Origin: Ostreibacterium oceani
GTDB taxonomy: Bacteria; Pseudomonadota; Gammaproteobacteria; Cardiobacteriales; Ostreibacteriaceae
Reading direction: 5' to 3'
DNA: 64,000 bases
NCBI RefSeq assembly: GCF_009362845.1
Contig: NZ_WHNW01000011.1
Location: 1 to 64,000, forward strand
Made by a program: the position numbers and the translations under genes. Position 1 is the first letter of the stretch. Each line of letters begins with the position of its first letter. Of this stretch, positions 15,301-26,846 are shown in pieces. Below the pieces are notes generated by a model. That model worked only from the letters and a program-made list of their open reading frames with translations, was not told the DNA's origin and ran no database searches.

Positions 15301-15486
15301 TATAATGACTTGCGTATCTGAAAGGTCTGGGATGGCATCTAACGGTATTTTTTTGATAGCAAGGCTACCCGCAAATAGGAGTGCAAGGGCGCCAAGTAAG
15401 ACAAAAACCCGATTGTGTACTGACCATTCGATAATGCGCGTAGTCAAACCCGTGGTTGGATCGGCGTCTGGGATACGATTACTCAT
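12325..15486 (-). CDS. cusA: Heavy-metal RND efflux pump, CusA-like (copper/silver)
   Basis: 1053 residues, full length for the HME-RND family. The three methionines that hold Cu(I)/Ag(I) in CusA appear conserved in context: LYMPMTLPG, APLPMIETW and RIDMLSTGIRTP. The proton-relay Asp in TM4 is in GSMVDASIVMIENAHRK. It is the inner-membrane pump that pushes metal from periplasm or cytoplasm out through the CusC-like duct. It overlaps the CusB-like gene by 8 bp at its 5' end and the CusC-like gene by 4 bp at its 3' end, giving the order B-A-C. Confidence 0.92.
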   Translation of the reverse strand: MSNRIPDADPTTGLTTRIIEWSVHNRVFVLLGALALLFAGSLAIKKIPLDAIPDLSDTQVIIRTEWAGQAPQVIEDQVTFPLSSQMLGLPKTKDVRGFSLFGTSFVYVIFEDDVDIYWARSRVLESLSQIAPQLPSNAKPQLGPDATGVGWVFQYALYDKSEQHDLQSLRSLQDWFVRFELASVDGVAEVASVGGFVKEYQVLVDPNKLRAYDIALPTVINAVRTSNKETGGRTLEMAEAEYLIRSFGYVEKPDDLAQSVLKTIDGQPITIGDVARVIEGPAIRRGVTELNGQGEAVGGIVVMRPGANALTVINDIKAKLASIKQGLPEGVELTIVYDRSELIEGAVDYLKDKLIEESLMVILVVFVFLLHARSAFVAVITLPLGILSAFILMNMQGITANIMSLGGIAIAIGSMVDASIVMIENAHRKLSMLDADATTAEKQSVLLESAKQVGPGLFFSLLIITVSFLPIFALTGQSERLFTPLAFTKTYAMAAASILSITVVPVLMLYLIRGKIRTETQNPVNRFFIFLYRPLLNGALRFRKTTVFLGLIALMSTLVPATKIGSEFMPPLYEGGILYMPMTLPGVSPMKMREILQVTNRQLMTIPEVDLVYGKAGRSDSATDPAPLPMIETWVSLKPRDQWRPNLTPEALIAEMNQQVRLPGMMNSWGYPIKIRIDMLSTGIRTPVGIKISGPDLTEIDKIAREVEQFARELPGTRSAIADRVQGAKYLEIIPNRREIARYGIALDTVQGIIQTALGGMILDETVNGRARYPIILRYDRPFREHISDLDNILIPSADGGHIPLSTLADIRVNNGPAMIKSENARLNGFVFVDIEGQDLGSYIDELQEALQTLTLPPNYSVTISGQFEEIQKANERLSVAIPATLLIIISLLYLHFGRWDKTVLIMLSIPFGLIGGLWMVWLADYNLSVAVAVGFIALAGIAVETAIIMLLYIDLQIQKNPPKTLIDLLHNIRLGSIQRLRPKLMTVGTILLGLIPIFLTEGPGSDVMRRIALPMLGGMASTLILTLLFIPAIYAIYLQWRYKLPISEEQTS

Positions 15487-17146
15487 GACGATGTTCCTCG
15501 TCTTTTGCAGCGCGGGTTTCTGTTGGGTTGGCTTTATCCATGCCTGAGCCCATGTTTGAGTCCATGCTTGAGTCCATGTTTGAGTCCATGTTTGAGTCCA
15601 TGCTTGAGTCCATGTTTGAGTCCATGCTTGAGTCCATGCTTGAGTCCATACTTGAGTCCATACTTGAGTCCATGCTTGAATCCATGCTTGAATCCATGCT
15701 TGAATCCATGCTTGAATCCATGCTTGAATCCATGCTTGAATCCATGCTTGAATCCATGCTTGAATCCATGCTTGAATCCATGCTTGAATCCATGCTTGAA
15801 TTCATGTCCATGTCGCGTTGCATGTCGCGCTCGTTTGGTGCACGCATTTGACTCGTGCCGCCACGAAGCGATGCCTCTGCATCAATCAAAAATTGGCCAG
15901 AAGTCACGATAGTCGCCCCACTGTCTAATCCAGATAGAATCTCTGTTTGTCCTTGTGCCGTAATGCCCGTTTTGATATCCACAGGCCGAAAGTAGCCATC
16001 GCCAAGGCTCTCGATGACTTTGGGGCCTAAGGCATCGTAGATAACGGCTTCGCTAGGTACGGCTAATGATTCTCTTGTGTCGGAATTAAATTGGACATCA
16101 ACGTAGCTGGCGATTTTGAGCTGTTGATCAGGGTTCGGTAAAACCAAACGGACAGTGCCTGTGCGCTTTTGCGCATCAGCCGTTTCATAAATAAAGTCGA
16201 TGGTCGCGTCAAAATTTTGCCCTGTTTCGGTTGACTGAACGACTGCGCTTTGCCCAACGGCGAGAAAGGGCAAGTCGCTGAGTGGCACATCGGCTTTGAC
16301 CCATACCTCGCTATAATCTTGTACGATAAGTGCAGTATTTCCTGCGTTGATAAAAGCCCCTTCGCTAATATTGAGTTGTTCTATCGTGCCTGATTTTGCT
16401 GAGTAGAATGGGGTTTCATCGAGTAAACGGCCTTTTTTTCTGAGTAGGGCAATGGCGCTGTCATCCATGCCAAAAAGGCGTAGGCGATTTTTGGCTTGTT
16501 TTGATTGATTGCCAATTAGATAATCGGATTGGGCGTTCATTAAATCGGGGCTGTAATAGGTGAATAATAAATCACCTTTTTTGATGGGGTCGCCTGCTGC
16601 TTTGGCGGTTAAGTCGACTACCCAGCCTGCCGTTCGCATATCCATGCGATATTCGCTGCGTTCATTAGGCATGATTTGGGCAAAGCTGCGGATATTTTTG
16701 CCAATTTGCTGGCGTGTCACAGTGGTGGTTTTGACGCCTAGTGCTTGTTGAAAAGTTGCACTGACTTTGATAGCACCGTCAGGCATGTCGGATTCACTTT
16801 CTTCATAAACTGGGACGAGGTCCATGTCCATAAACGGGGATGGGCCGGGTTTGTCAAACTGGGTACCAGGGACCATCGGATCGTGCCAATAGAGTATTTT
16901 CCTCTCATCAATGGTGACATCGTTGTTCGTTTCATTTGATGCATCGGTGAAACAAATAGGATCTGGCACAAGCTGCATCCCACAGATAGGACAAGTGTCG
17001 CCTTCATCACCGCGAATATGTGGGTGCATGGCGGAAACATATTTGCCTTCTTGGCAAACGCTGGGTAGTTCTGGGTTAGACGATTCTGCAATGGCTGGCT
17101 TAGCAAAACCAATACTGGCGATTAGTATCGCGAATAAAATACGCAC
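15479..17146 (-). CDS. cusB: Periplasmic adaptor (CusB-like) with two metal-binding domains and a long MDSS repeat tail
   Basis: 555 residues; a typical CusB is near 400. Order: signal peptide (1-20, ending AIAES); a heavy-metal binding domain (SAMHPHIRGD, CPICGMQLVP) at about 37-63; a second such domain (YWHDPMVPG, FMDMDLVPVY) at about 88-115; then the adaptor barrels and hairpin. The protein ends with about 21 copies of Met-Asp-Ser-Ser (residues about 450-531). Adaptors of this family link pump and duct and hand over Cu(I)/Ag(I). A Met-rich tail could bind Cu(I) but has no counterpart in the well-studied members. The start has RBS GGAGAA. Confidence 0.9.
   Translation of the reverse strand: MRILFAILIASIGFAKPAIAESSNPELPSVCQEGKYVSAMHPHIRGDEGDTCPICGMQLVPDPICFTDASNETNNDVTIDERKILYWHDPMVPGTQFDKPGPSPFMDMDLVPVYEESESDMPDGAIKVSATFQQALGVKTTTVTRQQIGKNIRSFAQIMPNERSEYRMDMRTAGWVVDLTAKAAGDPIKKGDLLFTYYSPDLMNAQSDYLIGNQSKQAKNRLRLFGMDDSAIALLRKKGRLLDETPFYSAKSGTIEQLNISEGAFINAGNTALIVQDYSEVWVKADVPLSDLPFLAVGQSAVVQSTETGQNFDATIDFIYETADAQKRTGTVRLVLPNPDQQLKIASYVDVQFNSDTRESLAVPSEAVIYDALGPKVIESLGDGYFRPVDIKTGITAQGQTEILSGLDSGATIVTSGQFLIDAEASLRGGTSQMRAPNERDMQRDMDMNSSMDSSMDSSMDSSMDSSMDSSMDSSMDSSMDSSMDSSMDSSMDSSMDSSMDSSMDSSMDSNMDSSMDSNMDSNMDSSMDSNMGSGMDKANPTETRAAKDEEHRHE
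15553..15800. repeat. 12-bp tandem array, about 21 copies, inside the CusB-like gene
   Basis: Plus-strand unit TCCATGCTTGAG or TCCATGCTTGAA, encoding MDSS/MDSN on the minus strand. Two sub-blocks are visible: a mixed GAGTCC block (15553-15672) and a homogeneous GAATCC block (15673-15800) that looks most recently expanded. Confidence 0.97.
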
Positions 17147-17818: not shown

Positions 17819-19150
17819 TTATGTGTTGTTTTGGTGAGTGTTGGTGCGCGAAGAATATTGGTTTTTCATTTTTGTTAGTAAATAAATAGCCAATTTATCC
17901 AAGCCAATACCAGTTCGAAACTCAAATGCTTCGTATTTGAAATGTGATGGTCTTAGTCCATATCGGCGCAAACCTGTTTGTAATGCCTCACGCAAAGTTT
18001 TTGGCCCGCAAAATGCGACTCGAACAGATTGCATGTTCTCACCAGTTAAGGTGGCAATTTTTTCTGCCGTTAATCGCTGTCCTTCGTCAGAGGCGATTAT
18101 ATGCAGCTTTAGTGTTGGTTTATCACGTGACAGCTGTTCTATTTCGCTCAGGTGAGGTGCTTGTGCACGTGATTTGACGCAGTAAAATAATGTGACGGTA
18201 TCAGCGTTTTCAGTCAACGTGTGCGCGATGGGGAGGAAAGGCGTAATGCCAATACCACCTGCAATCCATATATTTTCTCTAACTTTGGGCTGACAAAAAC
18301 GACCAAATGGACCTTGAACACTGACATCTTGTCCTATCGCGATAATGTTGGGTAATCGGGTTGTATAATCTCCTAATGATTTGACGGTTAATCGTAATTC
18401 ACCATGTGCCCCAATTTTGGAAAAACTAAATGGATGTGCTTCTTGATTGCCCGCCCCGACAAATCGAAAGATACCAAACTGCCCAGCGTTGGCTTTTATC
18501 TGGCGAGATTTTGGACGTAATGTAATAGCTATTGCATCTCCAGTTGGTGTTATCTCTGTAATAACATACGAATGCGAGGGGCGTAAGTGTTCAGGCAATA
18601 GGTTCCATAAATAGGCAAGCGCGCCGACAAGGCAAAATACAAAAGTGTAAAAACCTGCAGCGTCAGTCATGCTAAAGGGTTTCAGTATAAAAATAAAATG
18701 GATAGCACCCAGAATAAACATAGCACCCATGAATTTATGTGTCCACTTCCACAGGTGGTATGGGATAAAAGTCGCAATAGAAATGACACAAAGCACTAAA
18801 ATGCCATATAAACTCAACTCACCCATTGTCTCGGCGATGTCACTCAACCATGTCTCTTGTCCGAAACCTTCCATGTCTGCATCGATGGTGTCGTGCAATA
18901 AAATAGCAATTAAGGCAATAATACCAGTCCATTTATGTAGAATATATACATAATCTAAGCTGCCGAATAGGGTTTCGATGAGACGAAACTTGGTGGCCAT
19001 AATCTGTGCCCAAGCCATTAGTATCAATGCGGCTAACCCCAAATATTGAGAAAATAAGGCAAGTGAATCTGAAATATTGGGTAGGATTGCTAGTTGGTAG
19101 GCAGGAAATAATGTGGTGCTGACAATCAAAATAATACCGAATAAACGCAT
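17819..19150 (-). CDS. Ferric-reductase-like transmembrane flavocytochrome
   Basis: About 443 residues from ATG 19150, chosen for its RBS GAGG six bases upstream (an in-frame ATG at 19177 has none). Six membrane segments carry paired His (LHKWTG, LLHDTID, PYHLWKWTHKF, IHFIF) suited to two b haems. The cytoplasmic half has an FAD site (HPFSFS), an NAD(P) site (IWIAGGIGITPFLPIA) and the terminal FCGPKTL. It moves electrons from NAD(P)H across the inner membrane, possibly to reduce Fe(III) or Cu(II). Its place beside the copper pump suggests a link to metal redox state, since Cu(I) is the pumped form. Confidence 0.8.
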   Translation of the reverse strand: MRLFGIILIVSTTLFPAYQLAILPNISDSLALFSQYLGLAALILMAWAQIMATKFRLIETLFGSLDYVYILHKWTGIIALIAILLHDTIDADMEGFGQETWLSDIAETMGELSLYGILVLCVISIATFIPYHLWKWTHKFMGAMFILGAIHFIFILKPFSMTDAAGFYTFVFCLVGALAYLWNLLPEHLRPSHSYVITEITPTGDAIAITLRPKSRQIKANAGQFGIFRFVGAGNQEAHPFSFSKIGAHGELRLTVKSLGDYTTRLPNIIAIGQDVSVQGPFGRFCQPKVRENIWIAGGIGITPFLPIAHTLTENADTVTLFYCVKSRAQAPHLSEIEQLSRDKPTLKLHIIASDEGQRLTAEKIATLTGENMQSVRVAFCGPKTLREALQTGLRRYGLRPSHFKYEAFEFRTGIGLDKLAIYLLTKMKNQYSSRTNTHQNNT

Positions 19151-19282
19151 AGTAAACCTCAAGTTGAATATCAGCACGGTTGGTACTAATGACAGGCGAA
19201 ATTAATGACGGTAGTATACTGAAAGTCCCCGATAAAACAACTAAGTCATATCGCAACTTAATTGTTTTGTCGGTTTTTCCGC

Positions 19283-20626
19283 TTAATTTGTGTGTTGATA
19301 TAGTGTATCCAATTCGAGGAGGCTGCTTAATTCGCTTAGGGCGTTTTGGCTTTCGTTGTATAGCGCGATATCGGCGAGTGCATCCGTTGAAAGTGTGTCG
19401 CGATAGTGCGCGTTTACCCAGTCCACTAATTGGTTGTAGAGACGTTCGGTTAGGATGACGTTACCGCTCAGGTGTGCGAGCTCGGCATCGGTTAAGACCA
19501 CCCGCAGTCGTAAGCAGGCAGGTCCGCCACCATTGGCCATGCTTTGCTTTAAATCAAAATATTTGACGTCCGTAATAGGGTTATGGGCGATAACAAGGTG
19601 TTTTAAATAGGTGTTGACGGCAAAGTTGTCTTGGCATTGGCTGGGGGCGATAAGCGTCATGCCATTTTCGGTTGAAATGAGCTGTGAATTAAATAAATAA
19701 CTACTCACGGCATCTTTGACCGAGACCATCGCATCAGGGACTTCGACGATTTCAAAAGACGTGCCGCATTTTTCTTGTAGTGATTGATAAACGCGATTTT
19801 GCTCTAAAAAGGCCTTTTCGTGGGTGAATAAAACGTGTTGATTACCCACCGAGATGACATCATTGTGGAATACGCCTTGGTCAATGACGTCAGGGTGTTG
19901 TTGCGCAAAGACGCAATTCTCTGGTGCGATACCGTGGCGGCGCATAATGGCTTCAAAGCTCTCTTTGGTTTGTCTGGCGGGGTATTTCTGTGGTTTTTCG
20001 CCGCCCTCGAATTCACTATATCCATAAACAAATAAATGCACACCAGTGTCGCCGTATGTTTGGCAAAAACGCGTATGATTGGCTGCGCCTTCATCGCGTA
20101 ATAAATAAGTCGGCAGTGGTTCGTGGTGGGCAAAATAATCAGGGTGATTAAAAATGCATCGCAGTGCATGGGCGGTTTGTGGTGCTTCGACAGCGCGATG
20201 CAGCATGGTGGCTAAATTGGCTGGCGTAAAATGCACTCGGCCATCGGCGCTGTCAGCCGAGGGTGTTACCGTGGCCGCATTGGCAACCCACATGTTAGAG
20301 GCCGAGCAAAGGGCGTTCAAATACGTTGGGGCTTGTGATAATTGGGCTAAAATTTGTGCATCACTGCCTAAAAATCCAATGCGTTTTGCATAGGATAAGT
20401 ACGGGCGACAGTGCGGTGGGAGTATGCCTTGTTTAAGGCCCATGTCAGCTAGCGCTTTCATTTTTGCAAGCCCTTGTAATGCGGCTGTTTTCGGTGAAGA
20501 GACTTGTCCTTTGTTAGTGGCGGATGCTACGTTGCCGTAGGATAGTCCAGCATAGTTGTGTGTATTCCCAACGAGCCCATCAAAATTGACTTCGTAGGCT
20601 TGATTTGCGGTGCGATTGGTTTTCAT
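19283..20626 (-). CDS. astB: N-succinylarginine dihydrolase
   Basis: 447 residues, matching AstB (about 445). The N-terminal EVNFDGLVGNTHNYAGLSYG and PHCRPYLSYA, and the catalytic Cys in ANGGGPACLRLRV, are clear. It hydrolyses N2-succinylarginine to succinylornithine, ammonia and CO2, the second step of the AST pathway. Last gene of the minus-strand ast operon, 33 bp after astD. RBS AAGGAG lies before the ATG at 20626. Confidence 0.95.
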   Translation of the reverse strand: MKTNRTANQAYEVNFDGLVGNTHNYAGLSYGNVASATNKGQVSSPKTAALQGLAKMKALADMGLKQGILPPHCRPYLSYAKRIGFLGSDAQILAQLSQAPTYLNALCSASNMWVANAATVTPSADSADGRVHFTPANLATMLHRAVEAPQTAHALRCIFNHPDYFAHHEPLPTYLLRDEGAANHTRFCQTYGDTGVHLFVYGYSEFEGGEKPQKYPARQTKESFEAIMRRHGIAPENCVFAQQHPDVIDQGVFHNDVISVGNQHVLFTHEKAFLEQNRVYQSLQEKCGTSFEIVEVPDAMVSVKDAVSSYLFNSQLISTENGMTLIAPSQCQDNFAVNTYLKHLVIAHNPITDVKYFDLKQSMANGGGPACLRLRVVLTDAELAHLSGNVILTERLYNQLVDWVNAHYRDTLSTDALADIALYNESQNALSELSSLLELDTLYQHTN

Positions 20627-20659
20627 GTTAGGCTCCTTGTTGCCAGTTATTGCTGCCCA

Positions 20660-22195
20660 TTATTGCTGCCAGCCTGGTGCCAGGGTGTCAGGTAGGGTTA
20701 GGTTGTTGGCCATCATGCTAGCAACAGGATAGGCGCAATAATCTGCGGCATAGTATGCCCCAGGGTTGTGATTGCCCGACAGTCCTGTGCCACCAAACGG
20801 CATGGCACCACTCGCGCCTGTGAGTGGTTTGTTGCGATTAATGATGCCTGCATGGGACAACGCATAAAACTGTTGCCATTCGTCTTCGCAGTCGGTAAAA
20901 ATACCTGCCGATAGGCCATAAGCGGTCGCGTTTGCAAGCTCGATGGCGTGCGTTAAGTTATCTGCGTGGTGAATTTTTAACAAAGGACCAAAGTACTCTT
21001 CGTCAGGGATTAATGCGACATCAACCGCTTTCATGTCAATAATGCCAGGGCTTAAATAGGGTTTGTCTGCAATAACAGACTGCATCGGTAGTAAGGGTAT
21101 GCCACCTAAGCTGGTGAGGCGTTTTTCTGCTGCCAGCAGGCCATCGGCGGCACGTTGGTTAATCAACGTTGAGTAAAATGGCTGCGGTGTCGCATCAGGC
21201 GCATCGATGTGAAGCTGTTGGGCAGCGTTGCATAAGGCATCAATAAAGGCTTGTTTTTTGGGGCTGTCAACGATAATTAGTCGTCTGGCGCAAGTACAGC
21301 GTTGTCCTGCGGTGATAAAGGCAGACTGTATCGTGTGATAGACGGCAGCCTCAATATCAACGTTAGGGGTGATGATTAGTGGGTTGTTGCCACCCATTTC
21401 TAGGGCAATGATTTTATCAGGCTGGCCTGCAAATTGGCGGTGAATTTGAATGCCAACCGCAGAGCTGCCTGTAAAGAAAAACCCCCGTAATAGCGGGTGG
21501 GCGGTGATGGCTTTTGCGGTTTGTAGCTCACCGGGGACAAAATTAATCACGCCGTCGGGAAAGCCCGCCGCCTGCATCAAGCGAATCAAACGTTCGCCAA
21601 CTCGTGGGGTCTGTTCGCTAGGCTTAAATACGATGGTATTGCCTGCAATCAACGCGGGGATAATATGGCCATTGGGTAAATGCCCCGGGAAGTTATACGG
21701 ACCAAAAACCGCACAGACACCATGGGGGCGGTGGCGCAGCTGGGTTTGTTGCTGCCCTTGTTGTTGCCCTTGATCGTTATGCATCATGCCAGTTCTTTCG
21801 TGGTAGGCGTTGATTGATACCGCGATTTTAGCAATCATGGTATTGACTTCGCTGAGACTTTCCCATTGCGGCTTGCCTGTTTCTTGCATAATATCGTCTG
21901 CGAGCAGGGTCTTGTTGTCCTCTAATAGCGTTTTGTACTGATGAATTAACGCAAGACGCGCATCGAGTGGCGTCTGCGCCCATGACTGAAAGGCAGCTTG
22001 TGCCGCGTGAAAGGCTATGTCGATACTCTTTTCATCAGCGCATTGCCCTTGCCAAACGACACTGCCTGTTGCTGGGTTGTTTGAAATCAGCATGTCACCC
22101 GTGGCGCTAACCCACTGGCCATTGATGAAACAGCATTGGGATAACGTGTTGATATGGTCATTTATAGCGTTATTTATAGGGTCGTGTGTGGTCAT
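20660..22195 (-). CDS. astD: Succinylglutamic semialdehyde dehydrogenase
   Basis: 511 residues from ATG 22195. This start is chosen because the end of astA (MEEK stop) supplies GAGGAAAA as its RBS. Aldehyde dehydrogenase landmarks: CAVFGPYNFPGHLPNGH, ALEMGGNNPLI, the catalytic Cys in AGQRCTCARR and YFGPLLKI. It oxidises N-succinylglutamate 5-semialdehyde to N-succinylglutamate with NAD+. A QQGQQQ stretch near residue 145 is a small local expansion. Confidence 0.95.
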   Translation of the reverse strand: MTTHDPINNAINDHINTLSQCCFINGQWVSATGDMLISNNPATGSVVWQGQCADEKSIDIAFHAAQAAFQSWAQTPLDARLALIHQYKTLLEDNKTLLADDIMQETGKPQWESLSEVNTMIAKIAVSINAYHERTGMMHNDQGQQQGQQQTQLRHRPHGVCAVFGPYNFPGHLPNGHIIPALIAGNTIVFKPSEQTPRVGERLIRLMQAAGFPDGVINFVPGELQTAKAITAHPLLRGFFFTGSSAVGIQIHRQFAGQPDKIIALEMGGNNPLIITPNVDIEAAVYHTIQSAFITAGQRCTCARRLIIVDSPKKQAFIDALCNAAQQLHIDAPDATPQPFYSTLINQRAADGLLAAEKRLTSLGGIPLLPMQSVIADKPYLSPGIIDMKAVDVALIPDEEYFGPLLKIHHADNLTHAIELANATAYGLSAGIFTDCEDEWQQFYALSHAGIINRNKPLTGASGAMPFGGTGLSGNHNPGAYYAADYCAYPVASMMANNLTLPDTLAPGWQQ

Positions 22196-22196
22196 A

Positions 22197-23243
22197 TTAT
22201 TTTTCCTCCATCGCAATCAGGCTGACTGAGTCGCCAGCGGTAACGCCTAAAACGGCAGCGCATTCTGCGGTTATTTCTAGGGTGTTGTCTAACACATTAG
22301 CAGGCGCAATGGTGATGCGGTAATGGGCAATATTACGATTACTTATCATATAGCGTTGGTTGGGGTCGTGTAGTTCGGTTTTGGCGCTTGTGGCGGTTAG
22401 GATACTGACCGTTTTAACCGTGGTCTCACGGACCGAGCGAATCAAGCTTTTGCGGCAGTGCACGGTAGGGCCGCCATCAAATAAATCGACATAGCCATCG
22501 TAGTAAAATCCTTCTTTTTCGAGCATATGGATTGCTTTTGCAGAAATATCGTGTGGTTTACCGATGCAGGCTTGTGCTTCTTCGGGGAGCAAATCAACAT
22601 AGACGGGGTATTTGGGCATTAACTCTTGGATAAATTGAGTGCCCTTGGTAGCAGAGATATAGTCTGCATTTTCAAACGGTAAATCAAAGAATTTTTTCCC
22701 CAGTGCTTGCCAAAATGGTGAGTGGCCTTCAGCATTTTGCCAACCACGTAGCTCTGCCATGACGGATTCGTCAAACTGATCGGGAAAATCCGCGAGCATT
22801 AAATAGCGAGACCGTGACATAAATTGACCATAGCCACTATGGCGATAAGGTTTTCTCAAAAATAACGAGCCCAGTTCGGCGGCGCGGGTAAAGTCATTTA
22901 CTAGGTGCAACACACGATTTTCAATGGTCTTTTTGAGTACGTCTGAGTACTGTACAATCAAAGTTGATTTATAAGAATAAAACGGTGTCCGTGTGCCAAT
23001 GCCAACGTAAATGGCGGTGGTGCCGACGACGGTTTGTGTGTCGCTGTCTTCGGCAACTAAAAAATAAACGCCTTCGGATTTGTTAGCGTCAATCAAGCCT
23101 GCAAACGTGTCTTTGGAATTGGTGACGCGACTCAGCCATGTGCCTTCGTCATTCGGCATTGATGTCATGCCAGATCCGACTTCGATAGACATTTCGAGTA
23201 AGGCGTCTAAATCTTCTAATTCAACAGGTCTTAAAAATAGCAT
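22197..23243 (-). CDS. astA: Arginine N-succinyltransferase
   Basis: 348 residues from ATG 23243, giving the expected start MLFLRPVELEDLDAL; an earlier TTG is less likely. AstA family sequence is clear: TPFYSYK, GSLFLRKPYRHSGYG, SRSRYLMLADFPDQF and FDGGPTVHC. It transfers succinyl from succinyl-CoA to arginine, the first AST step. There is a single subunit gene, unlike the paired aruF/aruG of pseudomonads. One base separates its stop from the astD start, so the two are translationally coupled. Confidence 0.94.
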   Translation of the reverse strand: MLFLRPVELEDLDALLEMSIEVGSGMTSMPNDEGTWLSRVTNSKDTFAGLIDANKSEGVYFLVAEDSDTQTVVGTTAIYVGIGTRTPFYSYKSTLIVQYSDVLKKTIENRVLHLVNDFTRAAELGSLFLRKPYRHSGYGQFMSRSRYLMLADFPDQFDESVMAELRGWQNAEGHSPFWQALGKKFFDLPFENADYISATKGTQFIQELMPKYPVYVDLLPEEAQACIGKPHDISAKAIHMLEKEGFYYDGYVDLFDGGPTVHCRKSLIRSVRETTVKTVSILTATSAKTELHDPNQRYMISNRNIAHYRITIAPANVLDNTLEITAECAAVLGVTAGDSVSLIAMEEK

Positions 23244-23351
23244 GGAATTTCTCGGGGTTATCAATATTTATCAGTATGGTTAAGCTAAAAAATGGTTAGA
23301 TTAACGGGGTTAAGGGTGCTTAGGATGCTTAGGGCTTTGATGTTAATGGGT

Positions 23352-24593
23352 TTAGGAAGAGTCTAAATTAAACCATTGATTGGCATAGCCTAACAACAAC
23401 AACGTTGAGATTTTGCTGCGCTCACTTAAGCTGTCTAGTAACACATACTCGCTATCGGAATGGATATTGCCACCTCGTACGCCGAGCGTGTCGATATTTG
23501 CAAGCCCTAGTGCTTTTAAATTATTGCCGTCACAACAGCCGCCCGTTGCAATAACTTGGGTGCTAAGCCCTAGGTGTTCATTGACTTGTTGTAGTGCGGT
23601 GAATAAGGACTGTTGCTTGCTATCCATGGGCTTGGCTGGGCGCGTCATTTTACCATGGCGTTCGATTTGATAATCGCTATCGCTGTGGCGCTGGATTAAG
23701 GCATCGACTTGTTGCAGAACTTGCGTTGCCGCGGTATCGCTTTCTACGCGAATATTAAATCGTGCAATCGCCAAATCTGGTACGACATTCAGTGCTTGCC
23801 CGCCTTGTATTGTGCCGATATTGAGCGTGGTGGTTTGGTTTGGGTCGTTTAGTTGGTGTAGGTCATGGACTAGGCTGGCGAGTTTAGCAATCGCGTTGCG
23901 TCCGTCATAAAACGCGCGACCCGCATGTGCGGCTTTGCCTTTGACGACGATCGTAAAATTGCCCGAGCCTTTGCGTTGCCCGACAAATTCGCCACCAGGT
24001 AGGCTGGGTTCATAAATTAAGCCAAACGCGTGCCCACTAAACTGCGGGAAAACGCTAGCGGAAGATTGCGAACCAATCTCTTCGTCAGGCGATAAATACA
24101 CATCCCAACCGATATTTTTGGCGCTTAAGTGCTGTTCAAATGCTTGCAAGGCGGTCAGCATCACCAAAATACCACCTTTCATATCCGCAACCCCAGGCCC
24201 GTTTAGGGTGTTGTTGTCGATAAACTGGCATGTCTGGAAGGGGTGGTTTTCGGGGTATACCGTGTCCAAATGCCCGCACAGCAGCACGCGATTGGTTAAT
24301 TCTGGGCGTTTGCGTATCAGTAATCCGTCAGTGATGGGGGTTTGAATACATTCGCCGTGATCGTTAATTTGCGCCAGTGGCGGTAGCGCTACTGTTGCTG
24401 AATAATCACTAGGGGTTAGCAGTGGGGCAAAGGCATGAGCTAGCTTATCTCGATAACGATCGATGCCTGCAATGTGGGTGCTACCCGAATTGATATTAGC
24501 CCAGTCAACCAACGTATCGACTAATGATTTTTGCTGGCGATCAATCCAAGCCAGTAAATCGTTGGTCTCCTGTGGTAGGGTTAGCTTTTTCAT
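23352..24593 (-). CDS. M20 family metallo-hydrolase, candidate replacement for AstE
   Basis: 413 residues resembling glutamate carboxypeptidase/acetylornithine-deacetylase-type M20 enzymes. Zinc ligands and catalytic residues are visible: His in LLCGHLDTVY, Asp in GPGVADMKGG, Glu-Glu in SPDEEIGS, and the last His in GNIHSDSEY. It lies inside the ast operon between astC and astA. No AstE (M14-like succinylglutamate desuccinylase) is encoded in the window. M20 enzymes readily cleave N-acyl amino acids, so it may perform the final step, succinylglutamate to succinate plus glutamate. That role is inferred from position and chemistry. Confidence 0.8.
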   Translation of the reverse strand: MKKLTLPQETNDLLAWIDRQQKSLVDTLVDWANINSGSTHIAGIDRYRDKLAHAFAPLLTPSDYSATVALPPLAQINDHGECIQTPITDGLLIRKRPELTNRVLLCGHLDTVYPENHPFQTCQFIDNNTLNGPGVADMKGGILVMLTALQAFEQHLSAKNIGWDVYLSPDEEIGSQSSASVFPQFSGHAFGLIYEPSLPGGEFVGQRKGSGNFTIVVKGKAAHAGRAFYDGRNAIAKLASLVHDLHQLNDPNQTTTLNIGTIQGGQALNVVPDLAIARFNIRVESDTAATQVLQQVDALIQRHSDSDYQIERHGKMTRPAKPMDSKQQSLFTALQQVNEHLGLSTQVIATGGCCDGNNLKALGLANIDTLGVRGGNIHSDSEYVLLDSLSERSKISTLLLLGYANQWFNLDSS

Positions 24594-24605
24594 TGCGTAT
24601 TATCC

Positions 24606-24660
24606 GTTATCAATTAATCTGTCATCAACTAATTTGTCATCAACTAATTTGTCATCAACT
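24606..24660. repeat. 15-bp stop-spanning tandem repeat after astC
   Basis: Unit GTCATCAACTAATTT (plus strand) in about 3.5 copies. Read on the minus strand, the last codon and TGA of astC (stop at 24655-24657) are copied downstream in the same frame. Confidence 0.9.
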
Positions 24661-25845
24661 GGGTTGGTAGGTTTGTGCGACTTGGTCTAGTGCATTAATC
24701 AGCTGATCGATTTCGGCTTTGCTCACAATTAACGGCGGCAATAGGCGTAGCGAATTACCGCCAGCCTTGACTACCAGTATGTGGTGTTCGTTGCGTAGCA
24801 TTGTTAACAGTTCGGTGTTGGGTGGGGTCACTTTGAGCCCAACCATTAAGCCTAAACCAGTGACTTGTCCGTAGACGTGCGGGTACTTGTTGGCGAGTTG
24901 AGTGAGCGCTGCTCGTAAATACTCGCCGTTGTCACGGACTTGTGTTAAAAACGCGGGGTCGCTGATGATGTCTAATACGGCATTGCTAACAGCGGTAGCA
25001 AGTGGGTTGCCACCAAAAGTCGAGCCATGCGTGCCAACGACCATATGTTGACCAACGGCATTGGTTGCCATGCAAACGCCAACAGGAAAGCCGCCACCAA
25101 TGCCTTTGGCGCTGGTTAATACATCGGGTGTGACACCGAGGGCTTCGTAGGCGTATAGGTAACCCGTGCGGCCTGCGCCGCACTGTACTTCATCAAACAT
25201 CAACAAGATACCCTCGGCATCGCACAAATCGCGTACGGCCTGTAGGTAGGCTTTGTCGGCGACATTGATACCGCCTTCGCCTTGGATAGGTTCTAGAATA
25301 ATCCCTGCGGTTTCGTCTGTGATGGTGGCTTTGAGTGCATCAATATCGCCAAATTCGACTTGGTCAAAGCCATAGTCGTTAGGAATAAAACCCGCCATGT
25401 AGCTTTTATTGCCTGAAGCACAAACCGTGGCAATCGTGCGACCGTGAAAGGAATGCGTCATGCCGATGATTCGGGTGCGTTGTTTGTCGCCTTTGTCATA
25501 ATGGTAACGCCGCATGGCTTTGAGACCACATTCATTAGCCTCTGCCCCAGAGTTGGCAAAAAACATCACGTCAGCAAACGTCAATGCCGCTAAACGGCTA
25601 GCCAGTGTTTCGGCGGATTCAATACGAAACATATTAGACAAATGCCATAGTTTGTCCGATTGGTCCTTGAGTGCCTTGACAATATGCGGATGGCTGTGCC
25701 CCAAGCAATTGACGGCAATGCCTGTCGTAAAGTCTAAGTATTTGTCATTGGTGTCGGTGAATAGATAGCACCCCTCACCCCGAGTAAATAAGATATCAGG
25801 CGGGGCATAAACTGGCATGAAAGCGTCGCGTGTTGTAGGGTTCAT
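24655..25845 (-). CDS. astC: Succinylornithine/acetylornithine aminotransferase
   Basis: 396 residues from ATG 25845, which has GGAG six bases upstream; an ATG at 25857 overlaps that RBS. Class III aminotransferase with FFANSGAEANE, MTHSFHGRT, FDEVQCGAGRTG and the PLP lysine in TSAKGIGGGFP. It converts succinylornithine plus 2-oxoglutarate to succinylglutamate semialdehyde plus glutamate, and may also serve as the biosynthetic ArgD. First gene of the ast operon, divergent from a LysR gene. Confidence 0.92.
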   Translation of the reverse strand: MNPTTRDAFMPVYAPPDILFTRGEGCYLFTDTNDKYLDFTTGIAVNCLGHSHPHIVKALKDQSDKLWHLSNMFRIESAETLASRLAALTFADVMFFANSGAEANECGLKAMRRYHYDKGDKQRTRIIGMTHSFHGRTIATVCASGNKSYMAGFIPNDYGFDQVEFGDIDALKATITDETAGIILEPIQGEGGINVADKAYLQAVRDLCDAEGILLMFDEVQCGAGRTGYLYAYEALGVTPDVLTSAKGIGGGFPVGVCMATNAVGQHMVVGTHGSTFGGNPLATAVSNAVLDIISDPAFLTQVRDNGEYLRAALTQLANKYPHVYGQVTGLGLMVGLKVTPPNTELLTMLRNEHHILVVKAGGNSLRLLPPLIVSKAEIDQLINALDQVAQTYQPS

Positions 25846-25876
25846 GGTGGTCTCCATCGTTAATGATATTGGCTTT

Positions 25877-25904
25877 ATCATAGCACTTGAAGGTAAAGGT
25901 GCAA
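25877..25904 (-). promoter_or_regulatory. Candidate promoter of the ast operon
   Basis: On the minus strand TTGCAC and TATGAT are separated by 16 bp, ending about 30 bp before the astC start. A plus-strand TATAAT at 25922-25927 with no good -35 could serve the divergent LysR gene, about 44 bp before its ATG. Confidence 0.5.
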
Positions 25905-25970
25905 GCGATATATTGTTAGTGTATAATAACTTTTAATTATCAAAAAAAGCAAGATTAAGGAGTTTTTCTT

Positions 25971-26846
25971 ATGCAACCGAGCACCACGGCGCTGCGTTAT
26001 TTTGTGACGGCAGCAGAATACCTTAATTTTACCGTTGCTTCGCAGCACTTGCACGTGACGCAAGCTGCAATCAGTAAACAAATCAAATTATTAGAAATTT
26101 ATCTCGGGGTGGAGTTGTTTGTTCGTGAGCGCCAGCGTATTCGCTTAACTGCTGCTGGCGAGATTTACTTTAAAAATGCGAAACGCATTTTAAAAGAAAT
26201 CGACAAGCTGACGCTAACCGTGCGCAATTTTGAATCGACGTTTGATGAAATTCATATCGGGGTATTACCGACTTTTTCGGCGCGGTTTTTGGTGCCATTA
26301 ATGCCAGATTTGTATCAGCGTCACCCTGAAATACGCCTAAAATTGACGACTGAGCTGGGTAAAATAGATTTTACTCAGATGCCGTATGATATTGTCATTA
26401 GTTTTAATGAAGTCGCGCAGGATGAGGTCATGTGTTACAACATTATGGACGAGCATTTAATCGCGGTGGCTTCGCCGCAGTTGGTTGAGGAGGAAAAACT
26501 CACGCTCAACCAAATTGAAAAAGCCCCGCTACTGACGTTTCTAATTCGTCCTAATTTGTGGCATGATTGGTTTGCCAGTGTAAATCGCTCAGCGCCACCG
26601 CCACAATCTGGGTTGGTGTTTGAGAATTTTCAAATTCTCATTCATGCAGCGATTGCAGGGCTTGGGATTGCGTTGATTCCTGAATTTTTGATTCGTGAGG
26701 AACTCAAACGCGGTCAATTAAAACAAATCCATAGCCGACCACTACATTCAAAGCCGTACTATTTTATGGCGATTCCACAAGAGAAAATGCAAGATGAAAA
26801 AATTATCAAATTTAAAGAATGGCTGTTAAGCCAAGCGGCCAATTAG
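25971..26846 (+). CDS. LysR-family transcriptional regulator, probable regulator of the ast operon
   Basis: 291 residues. The N-terminal helix-turn-helix is standard (LRYFVTAAEYLNFTVASQHL, TQAAISKQIK), followed by an effector domain. The overall look is GcvA/AmpR-like. RBS AAGGAG lies upstream of the ATG. It is divergent from astC across a 125-bp region, the usual arrangement for a LysR protein controlling its neighbour, here arginine catabolism. In enterobacteria ast is controlled by ArgR and NtrC, so a LysR would be a different wiring. The stop codon is inside a 12-bp duplication. Confidence 0.85.
   Translation: MQPSTTALRYFVTAAEYLNFTVASQHLHVTQAAISKQIKLLEIYLGVELFVRERQRIRLTAAGEIYFKNAKRILKEIDKLTLTVRNFESTFDEIHIGVLPTFSARFLVPLMPDLYQRHPEIRLKLTTELGKIDFTQMPYDIVISFNEVAQDEVMCYNIMDEHLIAVASPQLVEEEKLTLNQIEKAPLLTFLIRPNLWHDWFASVNRSAPPPQSGLVFENFQILIHAAIAGLGIALIPEFLIREELKRGQLKQIHSRPLHSKPYYFMAIPQEKMQDEKIIKFKEWLLSQAAN

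Follow-up and report, generated by a model that had tools for sequence, protein, structure and literature searches.

Enzymes that release acyl groups from glutamate

AstE, the succinylglutamate desuccinylase of the arginine succinyltransferase (AST) pathway, is a member of the AstE/AspA family and is recognized by the profile TIGR03242. An amide of the same type is cleaved in the unrelated M20 superfamily by carboxypeptidase G2 (M20A), a secreted enzyme that acts on folates; it hydrolyzes the amide between an acyl group and the amino group of L-glutamate, which is the type of bond present in succinylglutamate. DapE, also an M20 enzyme, strips succinate from an amino group. Here we describe an M20 gene that lies within an ast operon of Ostreibacterium oceani, and argue that the family to which its product belongs, NF005602/PRK07338, is very probably a non-orthologous succinylglutamate desuccinylase, the last AST enzyme both here and across a large group of Pseudomonadota. 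This reading is drawn from the position of the gene in the operon, the lack of AstE, a distribution confined to genomes with AstA, the mutual exclusion with AstE, the conserved catalytic residues and a fold like that of carboxypeptidase G2.

The ast operon of Ostreibacterium oceani

The window (the whole stretch of DNA analyzed) spans 64,000 nucleotides of contig NZ_WHNW01000011.1. Its minus strand carries a run of five genes, in transcription order astC (24655..25881), the M20 zinc hydrolase gene (23352..24593), astA (22197..23264), astD (20660..22216) and astB (19283..20626), with intergenic gaps of 61, 87, -20 and 33 bp. The initial annotation had placed astC, astA, astD and astB in a single operon, and profile matches bear this out. 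AstD, the succinylglutamate-semialdehyde dehydrogenase (TIGR03240, 668.8 bits), and AstB, the N-succinylarginine dihydrolase (TIGR03241, 634.9 bits; PF04996, 640.5 bits), both exceed the NCBIfam equivalog cut-offs. AstA, an arginine/ornithine N-succinyltransferase, is above the cut-off of the subfamily model TIGR03243 (374.7 vs. 284.35 bits; PF04958, 384.9 bits) and below that of the AstA equivalog TIGR03244 (346.8 vs. 391), while AstC, a succinylornithine/acetylornithine transaminase, passes TIGR00707 (446.6 vs. 410.05) and falls below TIGR03246 (428.9 vs. 609.95). The M20 gene is therefore flanked by genes for AstA, AstB, AstC and AstD of the AST pathway, with AstA and AstC assigned by the broader models and not by the narrow ones.

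The M20 gene itself is an open reading frame of 413 amino acids with an ATG start. Its product matches NF005602/PRK07338 at 515.4 bits over residues 8-406, against a curated cut-off of 357. NCBI names this family only "hydrolase", and NCBIfam assigns it no specific function. Pfam recognizes M20 and M20_dimer domains only. The protein scores below the cut-off of the glutamate carboxypeptidase model NF004788 (185.6 vs. 349 bits), a likeness, shared with carboxypeptidase G2, that is to be read as one of working only, and below the cut-offs of the DapE equivalogs (best score, 103.3 vs. 304.2). The AstE model TIGR03242 is absent from the 25 best of its 54 NCBIfam matches, and no AstE match was obtained with Pfam either.

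Divergent from the operon, at 25971..26846 on the plus strand, is a gene for a GcvA-like, LysR-type protein with LysR Pfam domains. A LysR protein of 48-52% identity is found, again divergent, beside the same operon in two genomes from the same taxonomic order (G149, locus L148, and G356, locus L150); the gene is a candidate regulator of the ast operon. In a scan of 19100-26100, promoter and terminator sites were no more numerous than in shuffled sequence. Elsewhere in the window, inspection by eye suggests a metal-efflux membrane-fusion protein for the minus-strand gene at 15479-17146, with a C-terminus made up of an extended Ser-Met-Asp-Ser repeat tract that is Met-rich and possibly metal-binding.

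AstE-like proteins of the genome

That AstE is missing had been noted from the operon, and a search of the genome (2.18 Mb in 36 contigs, rated 100% complete) with two profiles found none elsewhere: PF04952 has 0 matches, and of two candidates scored with TIGR03242 none reached E ≤ 0.001. PF24827, a model of the AstE/AspA catalytic domain, has three matches over its cut-off (L001, L002 and L003), none with a TIGR03242 match at E ≤ 0.001, and all three were set aside as candidates for AstE. L001, on contig 4, is DoeB of ectoine breakdown (TIGR02994, 491 bits) and lies beside DoeA. L002 is a distant DoeB-like protein (32 bits). L003, on contig 10, is of AstE/AspA type and gives a weak match to NF052223, the model of the Shewanella acetylornithine deacetylase (44.9 vs. 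400 bits).

Two further observations concern these proteins. DoeB is the strongest AstE/AspA-type match here and might be misread as AstE, and L003 adjoins a gene that by eye resembles an amino-acid permease.

Their scores over the PF24827 cut-off might suggest that L002, L003 or a promiscuous DoeB is the real desuccinylase and that the M20 protein does something else. L001, however, is DoeB by its score and by its neighbor, L002 and L003 go unrecognized by TIGR03242 at the threshold given above, and the two genomes from the same taxonomic order that share this operon (G149 and G356) had no first-look candidate in a search with TIGR03242 only. We regard this explanation as very improbable, and as less likely than the biosynthetic role discussed below. 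The presence of the paralogues L002 and L003 is a point against the desuccinylase reading of the M20 protein.

Distribution of AstE and PRK07338 among genomes with AstA

The occurrence of AstA, AstE and NF005602 was surveyed in whole genomes, 369 in a class survey and 289 in a phylum survey, the latter searched at stricter thresholds (1e-20 for AstE and 1e-60 for M20). The class survey found AstA in 30 genomes, AstE at no less than 279 bits in 10 and NF005602 over its cut-off in 17. The next best AstE match is at 40.4 bits (87 other genomes have only weak matches, at or below this score); for NF005602, the lowest score over the cut-off is 415 bits and the next is 314. Corresponding numbers in the phylum survey are 62 for AstA, 41 for AstE (E ≤ 1e-20) and 20 for NF005602, where the lowest score over the cut-off is 512 bits and the next 276. 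Six AstA genomes are common to the two surveys. In the union of 86 AstA genomes, 47 have AstE, 35 have PRK07338, four have neither and, at the thresholds used, none has both.

AstA is present in all 35 PRK07338 genomes and likewise in all 47 with strong AstE matches. The two enzymes, though of unrelated families, would share a reaction and a position in the pathway. Fisher tests within the AstA genomes gave 9.5e-6, 2.3e-15 and 5.4e-20, values that are uncorrected for kinship or phylogeny, and the split follows taxonomy in part. Outside the class to which O. oceani belongs, 18 of 19 AstA genomes have PRK07338, one has neither enzyme and none has AstE; within the class, 11 families have PRK07338 and four have AstE, with none in common. 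The M20 gene shares a contig with astA in 33 of the 35 PRK07338 genomes and lies within about 150 bp of it in 31, the exceptions to this proximity being G340 (where the M20 gene is at a contig end), G499, G289 and G606. The suggestion in the initial annotation that the M20 enzyme could be an unrelated replacement for AstE gains support, at the level of sequence, from the split among the 86 genomes and from the adjacency to astA.

The most serious rival for O. oceani itself is that the M20 enzyme is the biosynthetic acetylornithine deacetylase (ArgE), located in the ast operon by chance, with the AST pathway incomplete or finished in some other way. ArgE is also an M20 enzyme, and the genome has ArgB while ArgJ was not found, so the organism probably needs some enzyme that processes acetylornithine. 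There are seven M20 matches in the genome; none of four others that were scanned reached E ≤ 1e-40 with TIGR01892, the model for ArgE, and the weak L009 and L010 were judged by eye. Yet the score of the window protein to TIGR01892 is itself weak (66.4 bits vs. a cut-off of 297.7), and L005, a PRK06837 ArgE/DapE family deacylase (534 bits), is a free candidate for ArgE in the same genome. Moreover, PRK07338 is never over its cut-off without AstA (35 of 35 genomes), although most AstA-negative genomes are assumed to be arginine makers. The Caulobacter vibrioides control, finally, matches ArgJ, AstA and NF005602 (E ≤ 1e-60) and not AstE; the NF005602 cut-off was exceeded by one control, which is not stated to be C. 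vibrioides. On balance an ArgE role is unlikely, and the desuccinylase reading is preferred.

The AstA genomes with neither enzyme vary in completeness. G100 (67% complete) is represented by a 6-kb fragment in which AstA is cut at the contig end, and G248 (88%) has AstA-AstD; AstB was not found in either genome. The other two are both rated 100% complete. In G025, AstC-AstA-AstD share a contig and AstB lies on a different one (L134, L164 and L167), and G420, from outside the class, has AstC-AstA and, on a separate contig, AstB, with no AstD recognized nearby (L159 and L168). Since these two complete genomes lack both enzymes, absence of AstE does not always imply PRK07338. ORF lists and BLAST with ast queries, the non-exhaustive means by which the neither-enzyme genomes were checked, revealed no hydrolase candidate for a third desuccinylase beside the ast genes of G025, which has either a third type of desuccinylase or an unfinished pathway. 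A variant of a different kind is seen in G564, where a second ast cluster (L163), with PRK07338 and a LysR regulator, has the order M20, astC, astD, astB, astA.

Genomes without AstB and the step in the pathway

In the class survey, AstB accompanies PRK07338 in 12 of 17 genomes, and the remaining five gave no match to AstB anywhere in the genome; the search was run on 15 of the 17, with AstB found in 10, and AstB of O. oceani (G000) and of G340 is known from their loci. The five are G231, G329, G115, G020 and G114 (loci L144, L152, L155, L156 and L143). G114 is 85% complete and the other four 93-100%, and all five keep the M20 gene, AstA and AstD. Succinylation of ornithine is established for AOST enzymes, and loss of AstB would leave a route that begins with ornithine succinylation and still ends in succinylglutamate. 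Retention of PRK07338 in the AstB-less genomes argues that the gene goes with the product of AstD and not with succinylarginine; these genomes possibly use an ornithine-only succinyltransferase route.

The same genomes bear on whether the M20 enzyme might act earlier, desuccinylating N2-succinylornithine or N2-succinylarginine in a shunt or salvage reaction. Placement of the gene between astC and astA would suit such a role, and M20 deacylases do accept basic acyl-amino acids (ArgE and LysK are among the fold matches). However, this activity would reverse the pathway and leave the succinylglutamate made by AstD without an exit; the exclusion with AstE (both in 0 of 86 genomes) is expected only if the two enzymes serve the same step; and the M20 gene is retained in all five genomes without AstB. 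Action at an earlier step is accordingly improbable, and less likely than an ArgE role. Hydrolysis of succinylglutamate remains the preferred assignment.

Named relatives of the family

Named relatives were taken as the best 80 of 576 from a scan of genome contigs with the family alignment. Sources among these best 80 include Legionella, Kordiimonas, Caulobacter, Brevundimonas, Maricaulis and Thalassospira, and further Marinobacterium, Neptunomonas, Oceanospirillum, Amphritea, Nevskia, a SAR324 bacterium and others. Within the locus, 75 of the 80 have AstA, 68 AstD, 62 AstB, 25 AstC and none AstE. For the 57 loci of at least 16 kb in the same set, the counts are 55 for AstA, 52 for AstD, 51 for AstB and 0 for AstE. 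Five of the 80 have no AstA: L042, L098 and L117, which are short or truncated loci, and L112 and L113, where the M20 gene is present and AstA is absent within about 17 kb. The proteins of three named loci also occur in survey genomes, and the two sets are therefore not independent; two of these three matches are Legionella species belonging to the class of O. oceani.

Several features of individual loci may be noted. L112, L113 and L117 (the last ending at a contig end) come from uncultured Gammaproteobacteria and have PRK07338 alone or with AstC only; they are perhaps decaying pathways. A tandem AstA pair stands beside the M20 gene in L052, L059, L061, L066, L069, L070, L073 and others, from marine Oceanospirillaceae and related bacteria, and two tandem AstA genes are like the two-subunit AruF/AruG arrangement. 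PLSDB records label the gene "hydrolase" both in Legionella adelaidensis, where its neighbors are astA, astD and astB, and in Sphingomonas parapaucimobilis, where they are astA and astB.

Conserved residues and predicted structure

Conservation was assessed in 97 family rows (94 of them distinct), made up of the 80 named loci and 17 proteins retrieved with the profile only. In a tree with 13 other M20 proteins the 97 rows form one clade (SH-aLRT 99); the tree was built by a quick method, has some long branches and excludes one outgroup row of less than 230 amino acids (L035). Three of the M20 proteins of O. oceani itself (L005, L006 and L008) had no phmmer match and were excluded from the residue alignment. 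H108, D110, D137, E171, E172, E195 and H378, which we take to be the metal and catalytic residues, are identical in all 97 rows. With the positions aligned to carboxypeptidase G2, the M20 two-metal site and the catalytic Glu are both present, and the complete metal ligands noticed earlier in the zinc hydrolase between astC and astA prove to be a constant of the family.

Other residues set the family apart. R226 is found in 97 of 97 family rows and in 0 of 13 other M20 proteins, and K321 in 97 of 97 vs. 3 of 12. The three outsiders with K321 (L028-L030) are the nearest non-members, all from AstE genomes, and they also carry R318, so R318 and K321 alone are no marker of function. C354 occurs in 95 of 97 rows and N358 in 96 of 97, each against 0 of 12; the 80 named loci had been retrieved by two peptide patterns, GG[CV]CDGNN and Gx[PA][NV][IV]DTLGV, and because both residues sit inside a pattern used in this way, their near-invariance partly reflects how the loci were chosen. 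In the profile-only set, each is present in 16 of 17. R226 and K321 lie outside the patterns.

An AlphaFold2 model of the window protein, built with a 17-sequence alignment, is a confident one, with a mean pLDDT of 92.5. Foldseek and VIA-align 2 both place carboxypeptidase G2 first among its fold matches (in VIA-align 2, Z 42.2 and 22% identity, with an rmsd of 4.2 over 383 residues), and the best VIA-align 2 entry outside carboxypeptidase G2 has a Z of 34.4. Carboxypeptidase G2 is the closest solved sequence and fold, with the same metal and catalytic residues and with an arginine (R324) aligned with R318; it differs in having Ala and Phe at the positions of R226 and K321 (alignments to 7m6u and 6xj5). 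The window protein shares superfamily and fold with DapE as well, and the organism's own DapE has arginines at the positions of R207 and R282. That enzyme (L004) is a separate, true DapE without R226, R318 and K321. In the Haemophilus enzyme the arginines that match R207 and R282 by motif are thought to contact substrate carboxylates, according to PMC4012986.

By analogy with these enzymes, the M20 protein would be a dimeric two-zinc amidohydrolase of the carboxypeptidase G2/DapE type that converts N2-succinyl-L-glutamate, its proposed substrate, to succinate and L-glutamate. The glutamate part is predicted to be bound by R318, R282 and N269, and the extra carboxylate of the succinyl group may be held by R226, which follows the dimer-lid His223 by three residues, together with K321. 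Such extra positive charge would fit a substrate with three carboxylates.

Implications for arginine catabolism

It is likely, on the broader view, that PRK07338 constitutes a second class of desuccinylase, evolved independently from a carboxypeptidase G2-like N-acyl-glutamate hydrolase, and that it predominates outside the Gammaproteobacteria and also, within that class, in Legionella and many marine members, serving an ornithine-only route in some lineages without AstB. No statement that an M20 enzyme replaces AstE was found in searches of the open-licence literature, including passages of PMC4551563, PMC9007349, PMC4012986 and PMC11511702. If the assignment is correct, the family now named only "hydrolase" would have a function, and the gap in the pathway would be filled wherever AstE is missing. 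It would also give a clear example of non-orthologous replacement, with one hydrolase family taking the place of an unrelated one, and metabolic models of Caulobacter, Kordiimonas, Legionella and the marine Oceanospirillaceae would gain a complete route of arginine catabolism.
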